Source of the DNA: Peptococcaceae bacterium
GTDB taxonomy: Bacteria > Bacillota > Peptococcia > DRI-13 > PHAD01
Direction of reading: 5' to 3'
Length of the DNA: 43,884 nucleotides
Assembly: GCA_024655825.1 (NCBI GenBank)
Contig: JANLFJ010000026.1
Coordinates: forward strand, 1-43,884
How positions within the stretch are numbered: position 1 is the first letter of the stretch; the number at the start of each line of letters is the position of its first letter. The translations under genes and the position numbers were made by a program. The notes beneath the pieces were generated by a model. It ran no database searches. It had not been told where the DNA came from and saw only the letters and a list, made by a program, of their open reading frames with translations. Shown in pieces: positions 29,470 to 39,712 of this stretch.

Positions 29470-31020
29470 TCAATGCAGGTAATTGTAGCCGTTGAGCGGC
29501 GGCGCGGTCCAGAGGTTGTAGTCATTGTCGGGCAGGGGCTGGAGGTTGTTCATGTCGTACCGCCCGCGGTTTGGGTTGTAGCTGTCGTAGAATCCATTGT
29601 CAAACTCGTAGACCTGCCCCGTATCGGGGTCGTACAGCCGCTCGCGTCCCAGGATGGCATCGCTTCTTTTTTCGGACAGGATGTCCTCCGTGCGGTTCCT
29701 GTTTTCCCAGACCTGCATGATGGTATCGGAGGTGCTGCTCAAAATCTGGCTGGTCCTGAATATTCCCTGCCAGACCTGGTTCTGGTTTTGCAGGCAGCGG
29801 TTCAGGTACTGCTGGCTGAAAGCAAAACTGCGGAGGGATTGAAGCAAGTCGCTTTCACAGCCGCGAAACTCGTCTTTTTGGGCGGTCATCCCGGTAAACA
29901 TAAAGGCATAGCCGATCCCTCCCCCCGCCATGTTGCAAAAAGGCAAAAGCGGGGCCACCGATACCGAGAAGAGCCCCTCGCACAGCTTGCCGCCATGCTT
30001 GAACAACGCCCGCATCACCGCCGCCTTCCCGCCTGTAAACGGCGTGGAAAACGGTTCGCTGGAAATGATTTCGACATCGTCCAGCGAAGAAAGCTCCGGC
30101 ATGAATCCCTGGGCTATCCTGGTCGCCATGAAGGCGTGGAACTGCTGGAGGAAATTTTCAGGGGTCAGGGGGTTCACAACCGGCACGTCTATCCACTGGA
30201 TGGGATAACCTCCCATGCTCATGTACCACTGGTCCAGTTTCCTTTGCTCTTCCAGGAGATACAACGGTCCCACCTCGCCGCAGTAAAAGATCTGGCGCGA
30301 GGTTTCGCCGGGGTCCCTGATGAGGAACGAAAACGTGCTGCCGTCTCCCGCCGTTTTTATTTGCCACCCCGCCGGCATGTTCACGGTAAAAATACCCCCG
30401 TTGTACGGTATAAGCTTAAGCGCAAGGGTTCCGGCGCTCGCCTGCTGCTGTGGCGCATTCTCTTGCCCGAAGCCGGCGATGATGGCCTGGATCAGTCCGC
30501 TGTCCGCTCCCGCGTCCAGGATGCCGTCGCAGTCGCTGATGACGATCAAGCCCCCGCTGTAGAAAACCTTTTTCCCCAGGGCTTCCGTAAGCGCCCGCAG
30601 CGGGATGAAAGTCCTGTTTTCCAGGCTTTCCGCCGGCACGTCCAGGGTGGACTGCCGGCCGTTGACGGTTATCTGCCTGCTGCCCAGGACCATTTTGACC
30701 GTCCGGTCGGAGTAACCAACGGTAACCGTTTTAGTCTCCGCGTCGTAATCCACCCGGGCGCCCAGGCTTTCCGCAATAAAGCGCACAGGCACCAGCGTCC
30801 GGCTGTTTTTTACGACCGGGCTGGCGTCCAGGGTCTTTACCGCGTTGTTTACGAAGGCGCTTGAGCTTCCCGTGTATAAAACAACGGCCTCTTTGAGCCT
30901 GGCTGCAGCCGCGGCCGGCAAGCGGGCCGCCGCGCCTGCAGCGGGGGAATAAAGCGCCAACAGAACGAAGCAGGCGCCGGTAACGCAGCAAACAATTTTC
31001 CGCCATACGCTTACGCTCAT
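29470..31020 (-). CDS. Secreted protein with copper-amine-oxidase-like stalk domains
   Basis: 516-aa exported protein. A signal peptide is clear at 1-30 (RKIVCCVTGACFVLLALYSP, then AAGAAA). Residues about 45-170 form a copper_amine_oxN stalk domain pair (VVKNSRTLVPVRFIAESLGA, SLENRTFIPLRALTEALGK), which in Clostridia serves as an extracellular spacer or wall-associated module and has no oxidase activity. The remainder (about 200-516) is an unrecognised domain with a PsbP/photosystem-like or DUF-type look (GGIFTVNMPAGWQIK), followed by a polar Asn/Gln/Tyr-rich tail (NPNRGRYDMNNLQPLPDNDY). ATG 31020 has GAGGGTGA five bases upstream. Likely outer-surface function, unknown. Confidence 0.75.
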   Translation of the reverse strand: MSVSVWRKIVCCVTGACFVLLALYSPAAGAAARLPAAAAARLKEAVVLYTGSSSAFVNNAVKTLDASPVVKNSRTLVPVRFIAESLGARVDYDAETKTVTVGYSDRTVKMVLGSRQITVNGRQSTLDVPAESLENRTFIPLRALTEALGKKVFYSGGLIVISDCDGILDAGADSGLIQAIIAGFGQENAPQQQASAGTLALKLIPYNGGIFTVNMPAGWQIKTAGDGSTFSFLIRDPGETSRQIFYCGEVGPLYLLEEQRKLDQWYMSMGGYPIQWIDVPVVNPLTPENFLQQFHAFMATRIAQGFMPELSSLDDVEIISSEPFSTPFTGGKAAVMRALFKHGGKLCEGLFSVSVAPLLPFCNMAGGGIGYAFMFTGMTAQKDEFRGCESDLLQSLRSFAFSQQYLNRCLQNQNQVWQGIFRTSQILSSTSDTIMQVWENRNRTEDILSEKRSDAILGRERLYDPDTGQVYEFDNGFYDSYNPNRGRYDMNNLQPLPDNDYNLWTAPPLNGYNYLH

Positions 31021-31074
31021 TCTATTCACCCTCAATGTCAGTCTGTATTAGACAAGTTATTCAACAGCGCCAAT

Positions 31075-31484: not shown

Positions 31485-32168
31485 TCAGGCAGGGCCTTTT
31501 CGCGCCGGGCCTGCCAAATGCGCGTAAAGGAGGGCCGCAAAGAGGAGGATGCCGGCCAGGGCAAGCAGGGCGGGCGATATATTGGTCAACACATCAATCC
31601 TGTTAATGATTTCATCAAAGCGCGCCAGGACCAGGCAAAAGGCGGTTGTTGTAAAAAATGCCACGGCCAGCGCCAGGGCAAGGAAGCCGGTTTGACTGTT
31701 AAAAACCGGCGAAACCTCATCCCTGCCGAGACCGCCCGATATTACAGCGTCATATTCCTTTTCCCACCGGGAAACAAACCATATGACCAGGCAGCCCCAA
31801 AGGACGAGCAGGCACAGGACTGCGGTTTTTGGAGCGGCGATGCCGGTCTGGAAAACCAGCGGGAAATGAAAGAGGTATTGAACAAGAGCGGTTATCCAGT
31901 TCATCTTGGAATAACCCGCCGCCGCGACAAAACAAAAGAAGCCGCAAACCAGGAAGAGAAAACCCCCGGCATCGCCCTTCACCAGGCTGATCAGCAAAAA
32001 GTAAACGGCGACAAACAGGGTAATGTAAAGGAACATCCGGGCGCCGGCTCCGAAAAAGGGGCTGGCCAGCGCATATACGCTCGTCGTCGAAAAGCAGTAA
32101 TAACTCACGAGATAGACGCAGGGAAAGCAGAACGCTTTTATGAGTCTCGCCAGGACCCTGTAGCTCAT
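31485..32168 (-). CDS. Multi-pass membrane protein of the MoxR/DUF58 locus
   Basis: 227-aa integral membrane protein with about six hydrophobic segments (for example MFLYITLFVAVYFLLISLV, FLFLVCGFFCFVAAAGY, TGFLALALAVAFFTTTAFCL, LLALAGILLFAALLYAHLAG). No catalytic motif seen. Its ATG overlaps the DUF58 stop by four bases, so it is the last gene of the five-gene locus and probably a component of the same membrane complex. Confidence 0.75.
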   Translation of the reverse strand: MSYRVLARLIKAFCFPCVYLVSYYCFSTTSVYALASPFFGAGARMFLYITLFVAVYFLLISLVKGDAGGFLFLVCGFFCFVAAAGYSKMNWITALVQYLFHFPLVFQTGIAAPKTAVLCLLVLWGCLVIWFVSRWEKEYDAVISGGLGRDEVSPVFNSQTGFLALALAVAFFTTTAFCLVLARFDEIINRIDVLTNISPALLALAGILLFAALLYAHLAGPARKGPA

Positions 32169-33505
32169 CTTTTCACCACCTGCTCAAGAAGGGCCTGGGC
32201 AAAGCCGCTTTTTGCGGGATCCCAGTCCACCCATATGACGCCGTTGTTCATCTTGCGGGCCAGGAAATTATTCCTGCTCTCCAAAAGTTCCGCGCCGGCG
32301 GCAAAAGGCCCCTCCAGCGATAAAAGGCCGTAGCCGTTGATATTGATGACCATGATGGTCAGTTTCCCGCGGGCAAGCCCGGTGTATTTCGACATTTCCC
32401 TTATGCCCGCGGACAGCTCACCGGCATTGGCGCCTGTCAGCCGCGTAACGATAACGCAAAGCGGCCTGCTCCCCGCAAGGTACCTTTTGTACTTGATTAC
32501 CGTTTCCCGCAGGGAGAGGGCCGGGATGGGCGCCTTGTCACCTGCTTGTTCCGGGTTGCCGGCAACGACGTTCAGTCTTAAAATGCTTTTCAGGATCTTG
32601 TAATGCTGCTTTTTACCCGCCCCGGGATGGATAAAATGATGCCCCCGGTTGTAAGCGCACAGGGCGACGATGTTGTTCTGCTTAAGGTAGTAGTCAGCCA
32701 GCCCGCTGACGGCTTCCAGAGAACAACCGAACACGTTTTTTATGTTCGTCCCGACCCGCATCGCCGGCGAATTATCGAGGAAAATCCAGACAACCTTCCG
32801 GCCTTCTTTCTCATACTCGTTGATTACCGGCTGCGTGCTCCCCCGGCAGACGTTCCTGGCGGTCGCTTTCCAGTTGATGAACTTGAAGGGGTCCCCCGCG
32901 CTATACTGCCGCAGTTCTTTGAACTCAAGAGTGGGAAGACCCATTTTGGACATTGCTCCCAGCGGGAGCGGGATTCTGGAAACCGCGGCGGTATTTCTCA
33001 GTTTTTTCAGGTCGGCAATCCGCGGTTTGACTTCCAGGACCTGCAGAGCCTGGTATATTTCCCGGAGCGGTTCGCGGAAGCGCAAAAAATGCCTCGCTTC
33101 CAGGGAAAGGCAGTTGAAATGGTAGGTTCCGGCCGCAGCGCATTTTATGCTGTAAAACATTTTCACGGCCTTTGGTTTCAAGCCTTTCCAGATGTATTTG
33201 ACATTGCTGCCGCCGACGAGTTCAACATTGGAGGGGATCTTGTCGGATATTACCACCACCCCAATGCCTGAGCCAACCGAGACTTCTATGGCATTCGAAA
33301 ACACCTCCCCGGCAAACACGGTGTCGTTTGTTTTTGTCCTCTTTACGGTTATCCCTCCGGGCTGCCGGACAAACATCCCCCCAAGGACGAGTAAAACAAC
33401 CGCCAGCGAAACGCTGACAAAAACCGTATTGGCGAAGGCGACCCCCAAAAGCAGAAGGAGGGAAAACAGTTTTACAACGCCGGCAAAGGTCGAAGTGAGC
33501 CTCAT
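32165..33505 (-). CDS. DUF58 family protein
   Basis: 446-aa protein with two N-terminal membrane helices (about 10-45) followed by a beta-rich region and the DUF58 signature: TLEFKELRQYSAGDPFKFIN followed by WKATAR, near residues 195-220. A von Willebrand A-like fold follows (VVWIFLDNSPAMRVG, the degenerate MIDAS DxSxS as D-N-S-P-A). DUF58 proteins are nearly always encoded next to a MoxR ATPase and are thought to be its client or partner in cell-envelope or complex assembly. Here it lies six bases after moxR and overlaps the membrane-protein gene. Confidence 0.9.
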   Translation of the reverse strand: MRLTSTFAGVVKLFSLLLLLGVAFANTVFVSVSLAVVLLVLGGMFVRQPGGITVKRTKTNDTVFAGEVFSNAIEVSVGSGIGVVVISDKIPSNVELVGGSNVKYIWKGLKPKAVKMFYSIKCAAAGTYHFNCLSLEARHFLRFREPLREIYQALQVLEVKPRIADLKKLRNTAAVSRIPLPLGAMSKMGLPTLEFKELRQYSAGDPFKFINWKATARNVCRGSTQPVINEYEKEGRKVVWIFLDNSPAMRVGTNIKNVFGCSLEAVSGLADYYLKQNNIVALCAYNRGHHFIHPGAGKKQHYKILKSILRLNVVAGNPEQAGDKAPIPALSLRETVIKYKRYLAGSRPLCVIVTRLTGANAGELSAGIREMSKYTGLARGKLTIMVININGYGLLSLEGPFAAGAELLESRNNFLARKMNNGVIWVDWDPAKSGFAQALLEQVVKR

Positions 33506-33511
33506 TTATCC

Positions 33512-34483
33512 TTACCTCGGAAGAAAGTCTTTGGGGACTTCGGTATTTGACACGATCTCATTTATTACTGCAGCCGGGTCAAGCCCCTCCAGCGTGTGCT
33601 CAATGTTCAAAATTATCCTGTGGGAAAGCGCGTCGGCAGCAAACATCTTGACATCGTCCGGGATGACGAAATCCCTGCCGCCGGACAAAGCGCACGCCCT
33701 GGACAGCTTAAGAAGGGCAAGACCCCCGCGGGGGCTGGAACCAACCCTGATTCTCTGGTTCTCCCTTGTGCCTCTCACGATCTCCCCGATGTACTTCAGG
33801 AGGTTGTCGTCAACATATACTTTTTCGGCCTCCTGCTGGAGACTCACGATGTCCTCCTGCCGCACAACCTGCTGGATATCGCCGGTCGGGTCGTCCTTCT
33901 GCCAGGAAATCCGCCTTTTCAGTATCCGGCATTCCGCAGCGAGGGTTTTCATATACCCCATGGAAAGTTTCATGAGAAAACGATCCAGCTGGGCTTCAGG
34001 CAAAGGATAAGTGCCCTCGTTTTCAATCGGGTTCTGCGTGGCCATGACTACAAAAGGAGCGGTCAGCCGGTGAGTGGTCCCTTCAATGGTGACCTGTCTT
34101 TCCTCCATCGCTTCCAGGAGCGCGGACTGGGTTTTGGGCATGGCCCTGTTGATTTCGTCCGCGAGAAGGAAGTTTGTAAAAATGGGGCCCTTTTCCAGTT
34201 CAAAGGTTGATTTTTCGGCCTTCCAGATTTTTGTTCCCACGATGTCCGACGGCATCAAATCGGGCGTAAACTGGATGCGGTTCCAGTTGCACCCGGTCGC
34301 TTTGGCCAAAATCTTTACCAGGAGCGTCTTTCCCAGTCCGGGGTTATCCTCGAAGAGGATATGGCCGTTCGCTATGAAACCGCACAATACTTTTCTCAGG
34401 ATGGCATCGTCGTCCGCGACGAAATACTCCAGGGCCTTTTCAATTATTTTTTGGCACATGTCCCCGGCTTTTCCGGCATCCAT
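33512..34483 (-). CDS. MoxR-type AAA+ ATPase
   Basis: 323-aa chaperone-like ATPase. Walker A is EDNPGLGKTLLVKILA, Walker B LLADEINRAMPKTQSALLEA, sensor 1 ATQNPIENEGTYPLPEAQLD with the arginine finger R following, and the C-terminal lid has GSSPRGGLALLKLSRA. MoxR proteins remodel or activate von Willebrand A-domain partners, here DUF58. I prefer ATG 34483, eight bases after AAGGAGG; an earlier ATG at 34531 overlaps the preceding stop (TAATG) and would add a Lys/Glu-rich leader, possible through translational coupling. Confidence 0.92.
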   Translation of the reverse strand: MDAGKAGDMCQKIIEKALEYFVADDDAILRKVLCGFIANGHILFEDNPGLGKTLLVKILAKATGCNWNRIQFTPDLMPSDIVGTKIWKAEKSTFELEKGPIFTNFLLADEINRAMPKTQSALLEAMEERQVTIEGTTHRLTAPFVVMATQNPIENEGTYPLPEAQLDRFLMKLSMGYMKTLAAECRILKRRISWQKDDPTGDIQQVVRQEDIVSLQQEAEKVYVDDNLLKYIGEIVRGTRENQRIRVGSSPRGGLALLKLSRACALSGGRDFVIPDDVKMFAADALSHRIILNIEHTLEGLDPAAVINEIVSNTEVPKDFLPR

Positions 34484-34530
34484 CTGCAGGTCCTCCTTTT
34501 TTCTTCTTACTTCCTTATTTTCTTCTTTCA

Positions 34531-35631
34531 TTAACTCCTTTTTAACTTGTCGATCATAGCCGCCAGCACGCTTTCACGGTTTTTCCGGTTATCTTTTTCA
34601 ACCTGGCGTTCCCGCCACTTTGTTGCCATCAACGGTGCGGGTTGATCACTGTATTTAAGGAAATCGTCAATGACGGCGCCTATTTGTTCGAAGGCCAGCC
34701 CCCTCTTCAATCCTTCCTCCACAACCGCAATAAGGATGTTCCTCTTGTCGCTCCGCTCAATAAAATCGTTGATACAAGAGGCGATTTCGGGAAGCTCCCG
34801 CCCGGCATCCTGCTCAACCACCAGCCTGTGTTTTTTCCATTCCTGGGGGGGCGTTTGCTGCGTAAGGCTGTCGATGCTCTTCACCGCACGCCTGAACAGG
34901 ACAAGGCACAGGAGAACCAGCACAACCCATTCCACCGTCGCCAGGTAGACGTTCCCCTCCAGGTGCGGCCTGGCTATGGAAACGTAGGCGGCAAGCAGCA
35001 GAAAGGCGAAAAATTTTGCGGGCAGCCTTGTGCCGATCCATTTCCCGGCCAGCGCGATATAGTAATTTGTTGACAGGGCGGCAGGGGAAAACAGCGCGCA
35101 CACCGCGGCAAAAACCATCCCCCCCAAGACCAAGTTGGCCAGCGCGGCAGTTATTGCGCCGGTCACCTTGAGGATTCCCGAAGCGGCCATGATCAGGTTC
35201 CTGGCCAGGAAAGCGGATACCAGGAGGACCAGGCTTTTTAACACAGCCTGCAGGCAGGGCCGGCCTGATGTGAAGTGCGCCAGCACCCTGTAGAAAACGA
35301 GAACAGCAGTCAGCGACAGGACGTATATTCCTGCCAGCCTGAGCCCCTGTCCAGCTTGGTCGTTAATGAACAGCAGGTAAACCGCGACCCCTGCCGCAAG
35401 CCACCTCAGGCTTCCGCAGAGGGTCTCAACAAAACTGCCCCTGAAAACGAAGGCGATTGTTTTGGAGACCAGGGTTAAAGCAAGGAAGACAAGGAGGGGC
35501 AGTACCAGGTGCCGTGTCCCCCGGTCGCCGAAGTAGATAAGGCCGGCAGCCGCCAGCGCGATTAAACTGGCCATAATTCCGGCCAGGCCGGGTTTTTTCT
35601 CTCCTTTGGCCTTATCGTTTTTACTACTCAT
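34531..35631 (-). CDS. Multi-pass membrane protein with cytosolic C-terminal domain
   Basis: 366-aa protein, about seven or eight membrane helices from residue 18 to 245 (LAGIMASLIALAAAGLIYFG, LVLPLLVFLALTLVSKTIAF, LVLGGMVFAAVCALF, VEWVVLVLLCLVLFRRAV), then a charged cytosolic tail of about 120 residues (VEQDAGRELPEIASCINDFI ... ATKWRERQVEKDNRKNRESV). Possibly the membrane half of a split TgpA-like transglutaminase. It overlaps the upstream gene by four bases (ATGA), with GGAGAG ahead of the ATG. No family recognised with confidence. Confidence 0.75.
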   Translation of the reverse strand: MSSKNDKAKGEKKPGLAGIMASLIALAAAGLIYFGDRGTRHLVLPLLVFLALTLVSKTIAFVFRGSFVETLCGSLRWLAAGVAVYLLFINDQAGQGLRLAGIYVLSLTAVLVFYRVLAHFTSGRPCLQAVLKSLVLLVSAFLARNLIMAASGILKVTGAITAALANLVLGGMVFAAVCALFSPAALSTNYYIALAGKWIGTRLPAKFFAFLLLAAYVSIARPHLEGNVYLATVEWVVLVLLCLVLFRRAVKSIDSLTQQTPPQEWKKHRLVVEQDAGRELPEIASCINDFIERSDKRNILIAVVEEGLKRGLAFEQIGAVIDDFLKYSDQPAPLMATKWRERQVEKDNRKNRESVLAAMIDKLKRS

Positions 35632-38036
35632 TTTGCACTCTCCAGGAAAGTTTTTATCTTTAAATAGGCCGGGTAAAAGGCTTCATAATCCGTCCTTTTA
35701 ATTTCCCGCAGGCTGTACGCCGCTGTTTCGAACGTTCCGACAAGCAAATCAACCTGTTCTCCCAGTTTTGGACCAGTTTTTTCCTTTATTATATCTCCCA
35801 GCTCTCTTGGAGTCAGGCTGCCGGCAAACGACCCGCCGTTTTTCCTTATCGACAGAAAGAGGTCCCCGGCCAAATTCATTATCTCCTCCCTGTATTCGAC
35901 GATCCTTATTTTTCTTTCACCTTCCGTATTCTTGTTTTCATTATTAATCGCCTTTATCTCGTACAGGCCTTTTCTTTTAAAGCAGCAATGGTAATGAAAA
36001 CACGGGGACTCTTTTTCAAAATCCAGGGCTGTTTTTTCGGTTTCCCCGATCCATGCCGTATAACCGTCTGCCGATTGCCTGAATTCCTTGCCTTTGCGGA
36101 ATTCTACCAGCAGCTCTTCGCCTGCGCCCCAGACATCAGGCAAATTGGGCTTTATCAGGGGAAAGAGGACCTCGATGCCGTTGAGCGCTGCGCCGCCCCC
36201 TGCCGCGGCGGCAGGGCATGCCTCTTTTATGCTGGCCCCTGCCGTCAGCCTTCTTTTTCTAAATTTTTTCACATACAGCGCGGCAGTGGTTGAAAGCGCC
36301 GCAAGCACGACAAATGTTATAACCTTCCTTGCTCCCGGGGGAAAATAGACCTCCCGGACGTAGATTTCCCCGCTCGCCTCCGCAGGGAGATGGAACTCGT
36401 CGCCGGCAAAAGCCAGGTAATACCTCCCGGCGTATTTTTTCACAAAGCAGTAATCCGCAGCAGCCTTTTTGGTCTTATCAATGCCGGTCTCGAGCGCGAA
36501 CATGAAATTCCCGTCCCCGTCCGTCTGCGTCTCCGCGGCGGCGAACGTGAGCGCCTGGCTTTCGCCGGACCTTACCGCTATCCTGCGGGCGGCCAGCGGT
36601 TTGCCGGACGCTTTTTCCTTCAGGCGGCCGGAGATCCTGACCTGGTTGTTTCCGCCCGCGCCGGAGGAAACCTGGAGTTCAATAACCGTGGCGGACATGA
36701 CCTTGAGGAGCGGGTCGCTCCATGAAGACCTGAACCGGTTGTTCTCCAGAGTTTGCGCGACAACGTGGTACCGGCCCACCTCCGTACCGGGATCGACGGG
36801 GAATTCGCCGGAAAACCGCCCGTTGAAAAGCGTGCACTTGCCGATGGAGAGACAAGGATCATTCTTGTTCTTTTTCAAGTAAACCAGAACCACCAGACCG
36901 CTGGCCCTGCTCCCGTCTTTGGAGGTAACCGTGCCTTTCACCGTAAAAGTGTCGCCCTTTAAAGTTTTCTCGCTTTCCACCTCCACCTGCGTGCCGGTGG
37001 CAACAGGCGGGGTGTAAAAGCCCCTGACGCCGGCCGCGTCAAAACTGATCCAGCCTGCTTTTTCAAAGCGTGTTTCCCCGTAAACATAAAGCTGGTCTTC
37101 ATAGACAACCTGGTATTCTTTTTGTGGTTCAACCCGGTAGCCGGTAACAATTCTCGCCGGCAGGCCCGCACACCTTGCCAGGACGACCAGGGCTGAATTA
37201 AAATCATAGCTTGAGCCCTGCCCGGCCTCAAACAGGAACCAGTCAACGGCGTCCCTTCCTGCAGGCGCTTTACGGGGTTCATCACTCAGCCTGTAGTTCT
37301 TTTTCAAGTAATTTTCAATCGCCTTTAATTTGAGATAGGGCTTATCACTGCCCGCCGTAATTTTGCCGGCAAGCCGGGCCACCCTGTCCGGCAAGCCGGG
37401 AGGCAGTTTAAGGTATTTGTCTTCCGCCGGGCATTCCAGGTCCCGCAGTCCCTGGTTGTTTTTGCCGGCGAAGACTTCGAAGGAAATGCTGTAACCGGCC
37501 TCCGGGGGCGTCCCCTCCGCAAAAACCTGCCGCTGCGGCAAAAACAGGGCCTCGCTCCCCTTAAAATCGGCCTTGACCACGTTCGTCACCGCGGGGATGT
37601 ATTTTACCCCGGCATCGATCGGCTTGATGCTGATGCTGCCTTCCTGGAACAGGCTCCTGTCTCGCCCCGCGCCCGCGTTTTCAGGAGAAAAAGGCACGGC
37701 CTTTTCTTTTTCACCGGAATCCCACGCGCCGTCCTGGTATATTTCCCCAACAGTGCACCGCAGGAAGGGCTCAAGGGGTTTCCCCAGTATCTCGTAAACA
37801 GGCTTATGAAGGCGTTCAACCTCGCCGGCCGGCACAAACGGGGAATCGCTTGTCCCCGGCCGGGCAGCCTTGCCGCCTGTTGGCGAAGTTCGATCCGCGG
37901 TTTGGCCGCCGGAACCGCCGCCTGCGCCTGCGCCGGCGCCAGGACCGGCTGGCTGGAAGAGATTAATGGCGACAATGATTAGGGCTATCGAAATGAACGC
38001 CGCGGAAATGACAAAAGATTGTGTAATTTTTTGCAC
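35628..38036 (-). CDS. Transglutaminase-like membrane protein with apparently lost catalytic residues
   Basis: 802-aa protein, first of the MoxR/DUF58 locus. An N-terminal membrane helix (about 8-29) and a Gly/Ala linker precede a large extracytoplasmic part; a second helix (about 575-595, VITFVVLAALSTTAALYVKK) leads to a cytosolic domain ending in a DUF4129-like LTPRELGDIIKEKTG. The transglutaminase core is recognisable (SALVVLARCAGLPARIVTGY), but the Cys expected in the GYCxxF context is Ser (QGSSYDF), and the His of HAWVEV is absent (DQLYVYGETRF); the Asp (ISFDAAG) remains. A few hundred residues of Ig-like strands follow. Family members cleave or crosslink envelope proteins; this one is probably non-catalytic. 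GTG start has a distant GGGAGG. Confidence 0.8.
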   Translation of the reverse strand: MQKITQSFVISAAFISIALIIVAINLFQPAGPGAGAGAGGGSGGQTADRTSPTGGKAARPGTSDSPFVPAGEVERLHKPVYEILGKPLEPFLRCTVGEIYQDGAWDSGEKEKAVPFSPENAGAGRDRSLFQEGSISIKPIDAGVKYIPAVTNVVKADFKGSEALFLPQRQVFAEGTPPEAGYSISFEVFAGKNNQGLRDLECPAEDKYLKLPPGLPDRVARLAGKITAGSDKPYLKLKAIENYLKKNYRLSDEPRKAPAGRDAVDWFLFEAGQGSSYDFNSALVVLARCAGLPARIVTGYRVEPQKEYQVVYEDQLYVYGETRFEKAGWISFDAAGVRGFYTPPVATGTQVEVESEKTLKGDTFTVKGTVTSKDGSRASGLVVLVYLKKNKNDPCLSIGKCTLFNGRFSGEFPVDPGTEVGRYHVVAQTLENNRFRSSWSDPLLKVMSATVIELQVSSGAGGNNQVRISGRLKEKASGKPLAARRIAVRSGESQALTFAAAETQTDGDGNFMFALETGIDKTKKAAADYCFVKKYAGRYYLAFAGDEFHLPAEASGEIYVREVYFPPGARKVITFVVLAALSTTAALYVKKFRKRRLTAGASIKEACPAAAAGGGAALNGIEVLFPLIKPNLPDVWGAGEELLVEFRKGKEFRQSADGYTAWIGETEKTALDFEKESPCFHYHCCFKRKGLYEIKAINNENKNTEGERKIRIVEYREEIMNLAGDLFLSIRKNGGSFAGSLTPRELGDIIKEKTGPKLGEQVDLLVGTFETAAYSLREIKRTDYEAFYPAYLKIKTFLESAK

Positions 38037-38226
38037 CGGAATTCAATTTACCTCCCGCGCATAACCGGGTTCCGTATTTTACAAGGGTTTGCGTCACCTT
38101 GACCGCCAAACTCGGGAGCCCCGGCCTGTCATATTTTTACACAAATCGCCTCTCCTGAAAAATTCTGCGGGGTTTGTCTTTTTCCTGCTGGATGGCAGAA
38201 ATTAAACACGATTTTTATGTATCCTG

Positions 38227-38335: not shown

Positions 38336-38539
38336 ATGAGAGCGGAGTGTTGGGAATACCGCAGCCTGGAGTGCCTGGCTTACTGCCAGACGCAGGATAA
38401 CTGCCGCGCGGCATGCGGTCTTCAGCCTCCGGACGGGGAAGACGATCCCGTTCCCGGGCCGGCCGCAGGAAGAGATGCCTATCAGGTGTTTTTCCTGGAC
38501 AGGAAGATGCTGCCAAAAACCCCCGTGACAGTTAAATAA
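38336..38539 (+). CDS. Small Cys-rich protein of unknown function
   Basis: 67-aa protein, the only plus-strand gene for over 30 kb. It has five cysteines in its first 28 residues (ECWEYRSLECLAYC, then C and C), an acidic Pro-rich middle and a basic end (FFLDRKMLPKTPVTVK). ATG 38336 has a strong SD (AAGGAG, seven bases). A near-consensus promoter, a palindromic leader and a terminator make a complete transcription unit, so I regard it as real. The Cys spacing suggests metal binding. The N-terminal CWEY...C...C form resembles small cysteine motifs of Clostridia proteins of unknown role. Confidence 0.65.
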   Translation: MRAECWEYRSLECLAYCQTQDNCRAACGLQPPDGEDDPVPGPAAGRDAYQVFFLDRKMLPKTPVTVK

Positions 38540-38642: not shown

Positions 38643-39125
38643 CTATTGTTTTTTACCTCGTGCTTCAAGAAAAGAAAGGAAATCTTCTAATTCATTTTTC
38701 ACGCGATTGAAAGTTTTAGGTAATTTATTCACTAAAGGTGCCATCTTGCTACTCGAAAGACGGACGCTATATACATTTCTTACAACATGACGAAAACCTC
38801 TATATTCATCCAGGGTGTTTCGAGTTTCTTTAGAAATAACAAGAGGTCTTACCAGTTCGATTTCCGTCGCCATTTGGCGCAATAGTTCCTGATGCCAGAT
38901 ATCTCCCTTCGGCCTCGATTGGTCCACGTTTGCGGCAATCAATTCAAAAATCCTTTCAAGCGCAGTATAAAAACTATGGAGGTTTAAAGCTACACTGTCC
39001 AAGTAAAACTCATCGCCAGTTTGCTTGAAACGCTCCCATCCAGCCTGGGTACGTTCAACAGCTTTTTTAACTTCGGAAAGTTCTTCACGAATCCTACTGA
39101 CAAGAGTTAGATATTCTTTGTTCAT
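38643..39125 (-). CDS. HEPN-domain (HepT-like) toxin ribonuclease
   Basis: 160-aa all-helical protein. The catalytic HEPN motif lies at 108-119, YRGFRHVVRNVY, with R112 and H113 and the terminal Tyr, the form seen in HepT-like ribonucleases. ATG 39125 overlaps the stop of the nucleotidyltransferase gene by four bases, so the pair is translated together as an MNT-HEPN type toxin-antitoxin, in which the nucleotidyltransferase neutralises HepT by adding AMP to its Tyr. The two genes are visibly more AT-rich than the GC-rich surroundings, and gene debris lies at one flank, indicating acquisition. Alternative: an inactive housekeeping pair. Confidence 0.85.
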   Translation of the reverse strand: MNKEYLTLVSRIREELSEVKKAVERTQAGWERFKQTGDEFYLDSVALNLHSFYTALERIFELIAANVDQSRPKGDIWHQELLRQMATEIELVRPLVISKETRNTLDEYRGFRHVVRNVYSVRLSSSKMAPLVNKLPKTFNRVKNELEDFLSFLEARGKKQ

Positions 39126-39505
39126 ACTTCGATTCCCTCGGTTTCAATCGCTTTCCGCAAGGAGTCCCCGCACTCTTTAGCATCAACCAAATCAACGTTG
39201 AAATCTGTAGTTAAAGCAGTTACTGCTCCCACCGCCGCATAAAATTGTTCATCAGGGATACCCCATGCCGCCAAGTCAACATCAGACCACCGTGTAAACC
39301 ATGAACGGTTGGCTAAAGAGCCAAACACAACTACTTTTTTGGCAGCGAAATTATCTTTTAAAAGTGCCGCAGCTCTCTTGGCCAGCTCCCAGGCCTCCTG
39401 ATAACGTTTAGTTAAACTTGCGTCGCTTTGCGAAAAATCGTCGGTAAATGTTAGAGGGTATTTACTTGTGTAATAGGTAGTCACGCCCTCAGGTTTTGTG
39501 CTCAT
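39122..39505 (-). CDS. MNT-domain nucleotidyltransferase antitoxin (MntA-like)
   Basis: 127-aa minimal nucleotidyltransferase. The active site is GSLANRSWFTRWSDVDLA, with G62, S63, D75 and D77 (eleven residues between GS and DxD, one more than the typical GSx10DxD), and a third Asp at 105 (FNVDLVD). In characterised systems such a protein AMPylates the HEPN toxin. An N-terminal extension of about 50 residues precedes the domain. Start ATG 39505 has AAGGAGG eight bases upstream; the longer frame to 39541 lacks a site. Upstream (39506-39712) is AT-rich sequence in which I see no gene. Confidence 0.85.
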   Translation of the reverse strand: MSTKPEGVTTYYTSKYPLTFTDDFSQSDASLTKRYQEAWELAKRAAALLKDNFAAKKVVVFGSLANRSWFTRWSDVDLAAWGIPDEQFYAAVGAVTALTTDFNVDLVDAKECGDSLRKAIETEGIEV

Positions 39506-39712
39506 TTTTTGAGCCTCCTTCCGTCTGATGCCGGATACCACTAAATGTATTATTGCAGCAAGTAATTCCTATCTTTCTTGGGGCATCTGCAAACTAAAAT
39601 TTAGGAGGAAAGACCTTTTGTAAAATCATACCATATCTCTCCCCTAACCTCAATATTAAGAGCATTCCATATCCATCTTGTCGGCAATTTCCATCATAGT
39701 AATTTATTCCTT

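Follow-up and report, generated by a model that had tools for sequence, protein, structure and literature searches.

The 802-aa product encoded at 35628-38036 on the minus strand of the window (the whole stretch of 43,884 nucleotides analysed, contig JANLFJ010000026.1 of a Peptococcaceae bacterium) can be read from its sequence, on sound grounds, as a transglutaminase-fold pseudoenzyme which has lost two of the three catalytic residues. Its gene is the first of a five-gene operon. The order, along the minus strand, is the transglutaminase-like protein, an 8-TM protein, a MoxR ATPase, a DUF58 protein and a 5-TM protein. The system is of a known kind, i.e. MoxR-DUF58 with TgpA/DUF4129; in the variant described here, the transglutaminase (TG) domain is inactive. 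The genes of the operon and the parts of the 802-aa protein are as follows:

31485-32168, minus strand: 227-aa membrane protein with 5 predicted TM helices; no Pfam family match
32165-33505, minus strand: DUF58 protein of 446 aa with two N-terminal TM helices (Pfam DUF58, 41.6 bits; partial MIDAS-like motif DNSPA)
33512-34531, minus strand: MoxR AAA+ ATPase of 339 aa (Pfam AAA_3, 216.6 bits; Walker A NPGLGKT, Walker B DEINR)
34531-35631, minus strand: 366-aa membrane protein with 8 predicted TM helices and a cytosolic tail; no Pfam family match
35628-38036, minus strand: the 802-aa protein read as a TG-fold pseudoenzyme, with an N-terminal TM helix, a TG-like domain, an Ig-like region, a TM helix and a cytosolic tail with a DUF4129-like domain
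37959-38033, minus strand: N-terminal TM helix, residues 2-26 (hydropathy; helix in the model)
37035-37376, minus strand: Transglut_core-like domain, residues 221-334 (Pfam PF01841; TgpA fold match)
37209-37211, minus strand: Ser276, at the position of the catalytic Cys (alignments; it starts the nucleophile helix of the model, H199-212 of the segment)
37086-37088, minus strand: Tyr317, at the position of the catalytic His (alignments)
37038-37040, minus strand: Asp333, the conserved third residue of the triad (invariant in alignments with bacterial and haloarchaeal homologues)
36483-36956, minus strand: Ig-like or carboxypeptidase-regulatory-like region, residues 361-518 (weak Pfam matches to CarboxypepD_reg, 24.2 bits, MG2 and Big_1, all under the cut-offs)
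36267-36338, minus strand: second TM helix, about residues 567-590 (hydropathy; helix in the model)
35643-35894, minus strand: DUF4129-like cytosolic tail, residues 715-798, with an LTPRE motif (Pfam match under the cut-off; hhalign)

The reading frame of the 802-aa protein runs on the minus strand from a GTG start with zero internal stops, the plus-strand reading of the same interval being riddled with stops; the frame is thus intact over 802 codons, as the first-pass annotation of this DNA had claimed. That annotation had also described a gene tightly coupled to a membrane protein, a MoxR ATPase, DUF58 and a second membrane protein. Pfam matches and gene spacing agree with this description: neighbouring genes overlap by 1-4 bp or are 6 bp apart, and a MoxR gene with intact Walker motifs adjoins a DUF58 gene, which assigns the operon to the MoxR-DUF58 systems. 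PADLOC gave no match for the operon. In the operon leader, a riboswitch had been suspected by eye at 38040-38200, for which Rfam gives no match.

Membership of the transglutaminase-like superfamily (PF01841) is supported both by the core profile and by the fold. The Pfam Transglut_core profile matches residues 221-334 with 76.8 bits for a cut-off of 23, and the 802-aa protein is the only Transglut_core match of the genome. The catalytic positions were assigned by alignment with TgpA (6g49), five bacterial homologues and four haloarchaeal homologues. Ser276 occupies the position of the Cys (GYC changed to GSS) and Tyr317 that of the histidine of HAW (HAWvE changed to YVYGE), so that both the Cys and the His of an active transglutaminase or cysteine acyltransferase are missing, while Asp333 is present. 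The core motifs FLF, GLPAR.VTGY and GW..FD are kept. One misread base does not explain these changes, since the neighbours of Ser276 and Tyr317 are altered too. Histidines are found in the whole protein only at positions 77, 424, 549, 681 and 683, i.e. there are none in residues 78-423, and no other Cys-His-Asp triad is therefore possible in the TG domain. The features noticed on first reading, namely a TG core with Ser for the catalytic Cys, a missing HAW histidine and a later Asp, were all confirmed, and the check proposed at that time, for another Cys-His-Asp triad in the core, came out in favour of the loss.

The Cys and the His are kept in 51 of the 53 distinct related cores from the fetched loci, a sample biased toward cores resembling the query. 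One of the two exceptions is the 802-aa protein itself. The other is a different and shorter protein (a 477-aa frame in locus L029, G120:C94), the TG-like domain of which also has Ser for Cys and is without the HAW histidine.

A structure model of residues 78-345, built from a six-sequence alignment, reached pLDDT values of 61-96 over the core (about residues 130-260 of the model). Among solved structures, the periplasmic domain of TgpA comes nearest to the model (Foldseek E 6.5e-10), and the comparison of the two folds gave Z 15.7 and an rmsd of 4.5 over 186-188 residues with 21% identity. Protein 4.2 was also among the fold matches (Z 8.6). Ser276 opens a helix in the model and Tyr317 begins a strand, which we take to be the nucleophile-bearing helix and the His-bearing strand of transglutaminases. 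Cys289 is located where the core helix ends, 13 residues past the catalytic position. The full-length model was poor (mean pLDDT 43.5), its Ig-like and tail domains not being reliable, and the fold comparison was for this reason limited to the TG segment.

Outside the TG domain, a C-terminal DUF4129-like domain had been proposed in the first-pass annotation. The tail scores 13.9 bits with Pfam DUF4129, under the cut-off of 24.8, and the proposal is supported by comparison with a profile of ten DUF4129 tails, where the hhalign score was 28.0 (P 1.5e-4) compared to 15.9 at most for 50 shuffles. The multi-TM N-terminus of the TgpA_N/DUF3488 type was not recovered: a single TM helix is present in this region and PF11992 gave no match at E up to 1. 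Between the second TM helix and the DUF4129-like tail lies a Cys/His-rich motif, CFHYHCC (residues 679-685; 35982-36002, minus strand), which could bind metal. The stretch around this motif has an Ig-like look, though it is predicted to be cytosolic.

MoxR-DUF58-transglutaminase operons are widespread and poorly understood. Twenty MoxR loci, taken from the same genome and its relatives, were surveyed. In 3 of them (L105, L114 and L115) a TgpA-type TG gene is present in the MoxR run, with both Cys and His in all cases. These three proteins and TgpA of P. aeruginosa (PA2873) share with the 802-aa protein the TG core and fold and the final TM helix, and their DUF4129-type tail probably has its counterpart in the DUF4129-like tail of the 802-aa protein; in the three loci the TG gene lies, as here, in one run with MoxR and with DUF58 or a gene in the DUF58 position. 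TgpA has a Cys-His-Asp triad and a measured activity (PMC3507681). Its N-terminus is the multi-TM TgpA_N region, whereas the 802-aa protein has a single TM helix, adds the Ig-like region and is without the catalytic Cys and His.

An architecture made of one N-terminal TM helix, a TG domain, Ig-like repeats, a TM helix and DUF4129 is common to the 802-aa protein and to haloarchaeal proteins (L119, L121, L122 and L123), a likeness which, for the Ig-like region and the DUF4129 tail of the 802-aa protein, comes from weak matches. The L119 protein has a TG core of 105.3 bits, a TgpA_N match, Fn3_arc repeats and DUF4129. Gene order in the haloarchaeal loci is TG, DUF7269, DUF58, DUF7519 (DUF7269 and DUF7519 being assigned from L119, the only locus where these two genes were checked for family), with MoxR nearby in some of them, and resembles that of the operon described here. 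Two differences concern the position of MoxR, which is inside the operon here, and the two membrane proteins, which stand at the places of DUF7269 and DUF7519 with no detectable relation to either. The 366-aa protein was compared to DUF7269 (hhalign probability 0.2% with a four-sequence profile) and the 227-aa protein to DUF7519 (0.3%); neither has a Pfam match and both assignments were rejected, as was a DUF4129 assignment for the tail of the 366-aa protein, which hhalign did not support. Unlike the 802-aa protein, the haloarchaeal TG proteins have intact triads.

Other operons of this kind are devoid of a TG domain. A DUF4129 protein without TG domain according to Pfam is found beside MoxR in L100, L103, L106 and L110, the four loci checked, and the haloarchaeal locus L125, on a Halomarina plasmid, has a 251-aa DUF4129-only protein in the very place that the TG protein takes elsewhere. 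These operons have in common with the one described here a DUF4129 tail (DUF4129-like in the 802-aa protein), MoxR, DUF58 or a gene in its position, and multi-TM proteins. The part that stays constant is thus DUF4129, the TG domain being an outer head which may be absent. Homologues with an active Cys in like loci had been named in the first-pass annotation as evidence which would speak against its claim, and such homologues do exist, both in haloarchaeal loci and in three other loci from bacteria of the same phylum. Their presence elsewhere indicates that the catalytic loss belongs to this copy and not to the system; the loss observed here stands. As the related operons have either an active TG or none, the 802-aa protein appears to be a lineage-specific pseudoenzyme variant, and the TG-less operons indirectly strengthen the view that the essential function lies elsewhere than in catalysis. 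L106 (G000:C1) is the second MoxR operon of the genome: its genes encode MoxR, a protein with two TM helices where DUF58 would stand, a DUF4129 protein with 8 TM helices and an S41 peptidase with PDZ, without TG domain, and a similar gene order is found in the sister genus (L107).

Co-location of MoxR, DUF58 and a transglutaminase is also known from the bifidobacterial PFNA operon (pkb2-fn3-aaa-atp-duf58-tgm), which, unlike the present one, contains kinase and FN3 proteins and whose TGM is treated as an enzyme (PMC8430577). Inactive members of the TG superfamily are well known according to PMC10318531, where protein 4.2 (EPB42) is given as a catalytically inactive TG-fold protein. EPB42 sits in a membrane-protein complex of the erythrocyte; as a eukaryotic protein without MoxR or DUF58 it provides a functional analogy only. 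Our literature search found no bacterial dead transglutaminase in an operon of this kind.

The distribution of the operon was analyzed in several sets of genomes. No full-length relative of the 802-aa protein was found by protein search among 46 genomes of the class, 25 of which belong to the order, nor in 150 relatives, in a phylum sample of 398 genomes, in GTDB contigs (close relatives only) or in IMG/VR. The 366-aa membrane protein had no match in the 150 relatives or in plasmids. A search for orthologous loci that started from MoxR led to no orthologous operon: the other MoxR proteins found share about 40-51% identity with that of the operon, levelling off at about 51% for matches that cover most of its length, with one short partial match at 52%. 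GC3 ranges from 0.63 to 0.68 in the five operon genes compared to 0.71-0.78 in ten other genes of the window. This lack of relatives, together with the divergent MoxR and the lower GC3, points to an operon that is probably either an acquisition or a rare survivor. No empty insertion site could be demonstrated in the relatives, in which the flanking genes are non-syntenic.

With no orthologue in the genomes searched, the TG-like domain may be decaying. The loss could then be recent, in an operon acquired or dispensable, the active site drifting toward a pseudogene with no new function. This would agree with an operon present in this genome only among the class members searched, with a GC3 lowered in all five genes, and with the deviant MNT-HepT gene pair just upstream. 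Against decay, no stop interrupts any of the five frames, which together span about 2200 codons, the Walker motifs of MoxR are intact and the TG fold signature is otherwise strong; the further changes at several neighbours of the active site (GSS, YVYGE) suggest that the loss is old and that the fold has been preserved. We regard a recent loss as unlikely. It is more doubtful still that the TG-like domain is no more than a passive spacer or a stalk, with function residing in the TM helices and the DUF4129 tail. The TG-less DUF4129 proteins of otherwise similar operons speak for a spacer, but the core motifs (ARCAGLPARIVTGY, GWISFD) are strongly retained here, which argues for more than a spacer without being a proof.

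A domain still catalytic through unusual residues, e.g. with Ser276 or Cys289 as nucleophile and an acidic partner, seems very improbable. PMC10318531 documents active-site migrations in other transglutaminases, and reports His migration and Cys-Glu dyads in the papain-like superfamily; Cys289, given its place in the core helix, might be thought of in this respect. However, Cys289 lies 13 residues further along the helix than the catalytic position, residues 78-423 have zero His, and none of the working arrangements described in the passages considered is without both the Cys and any His.

The reading which we prefer, and hold to be somewhat probable, is that the operon encodes a MoxR-DUF58-DUF4129 membrane system with a TG-fold pseudoenzyme as extracytoplasmic module, the outer region of which would have a binding or scaffolding function while MoxR-DUF58 would act on the tail. 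We infer that a binding or scaffold role of the dead TG protein, as suggested in the first-pass annotation, is likely, and it is at least plausible. The outer TG-like and Ig-like region would bind a surface ligand in what was once the substrate cleft, such as a peptide of the cell wall or of a protein, or would hold a membrane complex together. On the inner side, the MoxR ring and DUF58 would act at the intracellular DUF4129 tail, DUF58 serving as an adaptor which couples MoxR to this tail and to the membrane proteins. The result might be an ATP-driven assembly or remodelling of a complex including the two multi-TM proteins, in a NorQ/NorD-like manner. In the NorQ/NorD case, a MoxR ring with a VWA adaptor is proposed to remodel a membrane target (PMC9976466); strict analogy with NorD is weakened by the MIDAS-like motif of DUF58, which is partial (DNSPA). 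A more specific possibility, which we judge to be rather unlikely, is that the dead ectodomain is a receptor for peptide or cell-wall ligands held in the old cleft and signals via DUF4129 to DUF58 and MoxR, an enzyme system being turned into a sensor or scaffold. If the preferred reading of a pseudoenzyme module is true, the catalysis-free and TG-less versions would put a MoxR-DUF58-DUF4129 membrane machine at the core of these operons, the TG domain being an exchangeable outer head, and the prediction is that DUF58 and MoxR act on DUF4129.

The surroundings of the operon also contain elements of their own. In the gap upstream of it, a short divergent ORF (38336-38539, plus strand) encodes a Cys-rich peptide (MRAECWEYRSLECLAYCQTQDNCRAACG...). 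Directly upstream, at 38643-39541 on the minus strand, a HepT-like gene (HepT-like_2, 121.9 bits) overlaps a Polbeta/MNT-like nucleotidyltransferase gene; the composition of this MNT-HepT pair is clearly deviant (GC 0.40-0.46, GC3 0.34-0.43). On the other side of the operon, the gene at 29470-31035 (minus strand) encodes a protein with a copper amine oxidase N-terminal domain, which has 16-23 matches in each of seven relatives of the same order.
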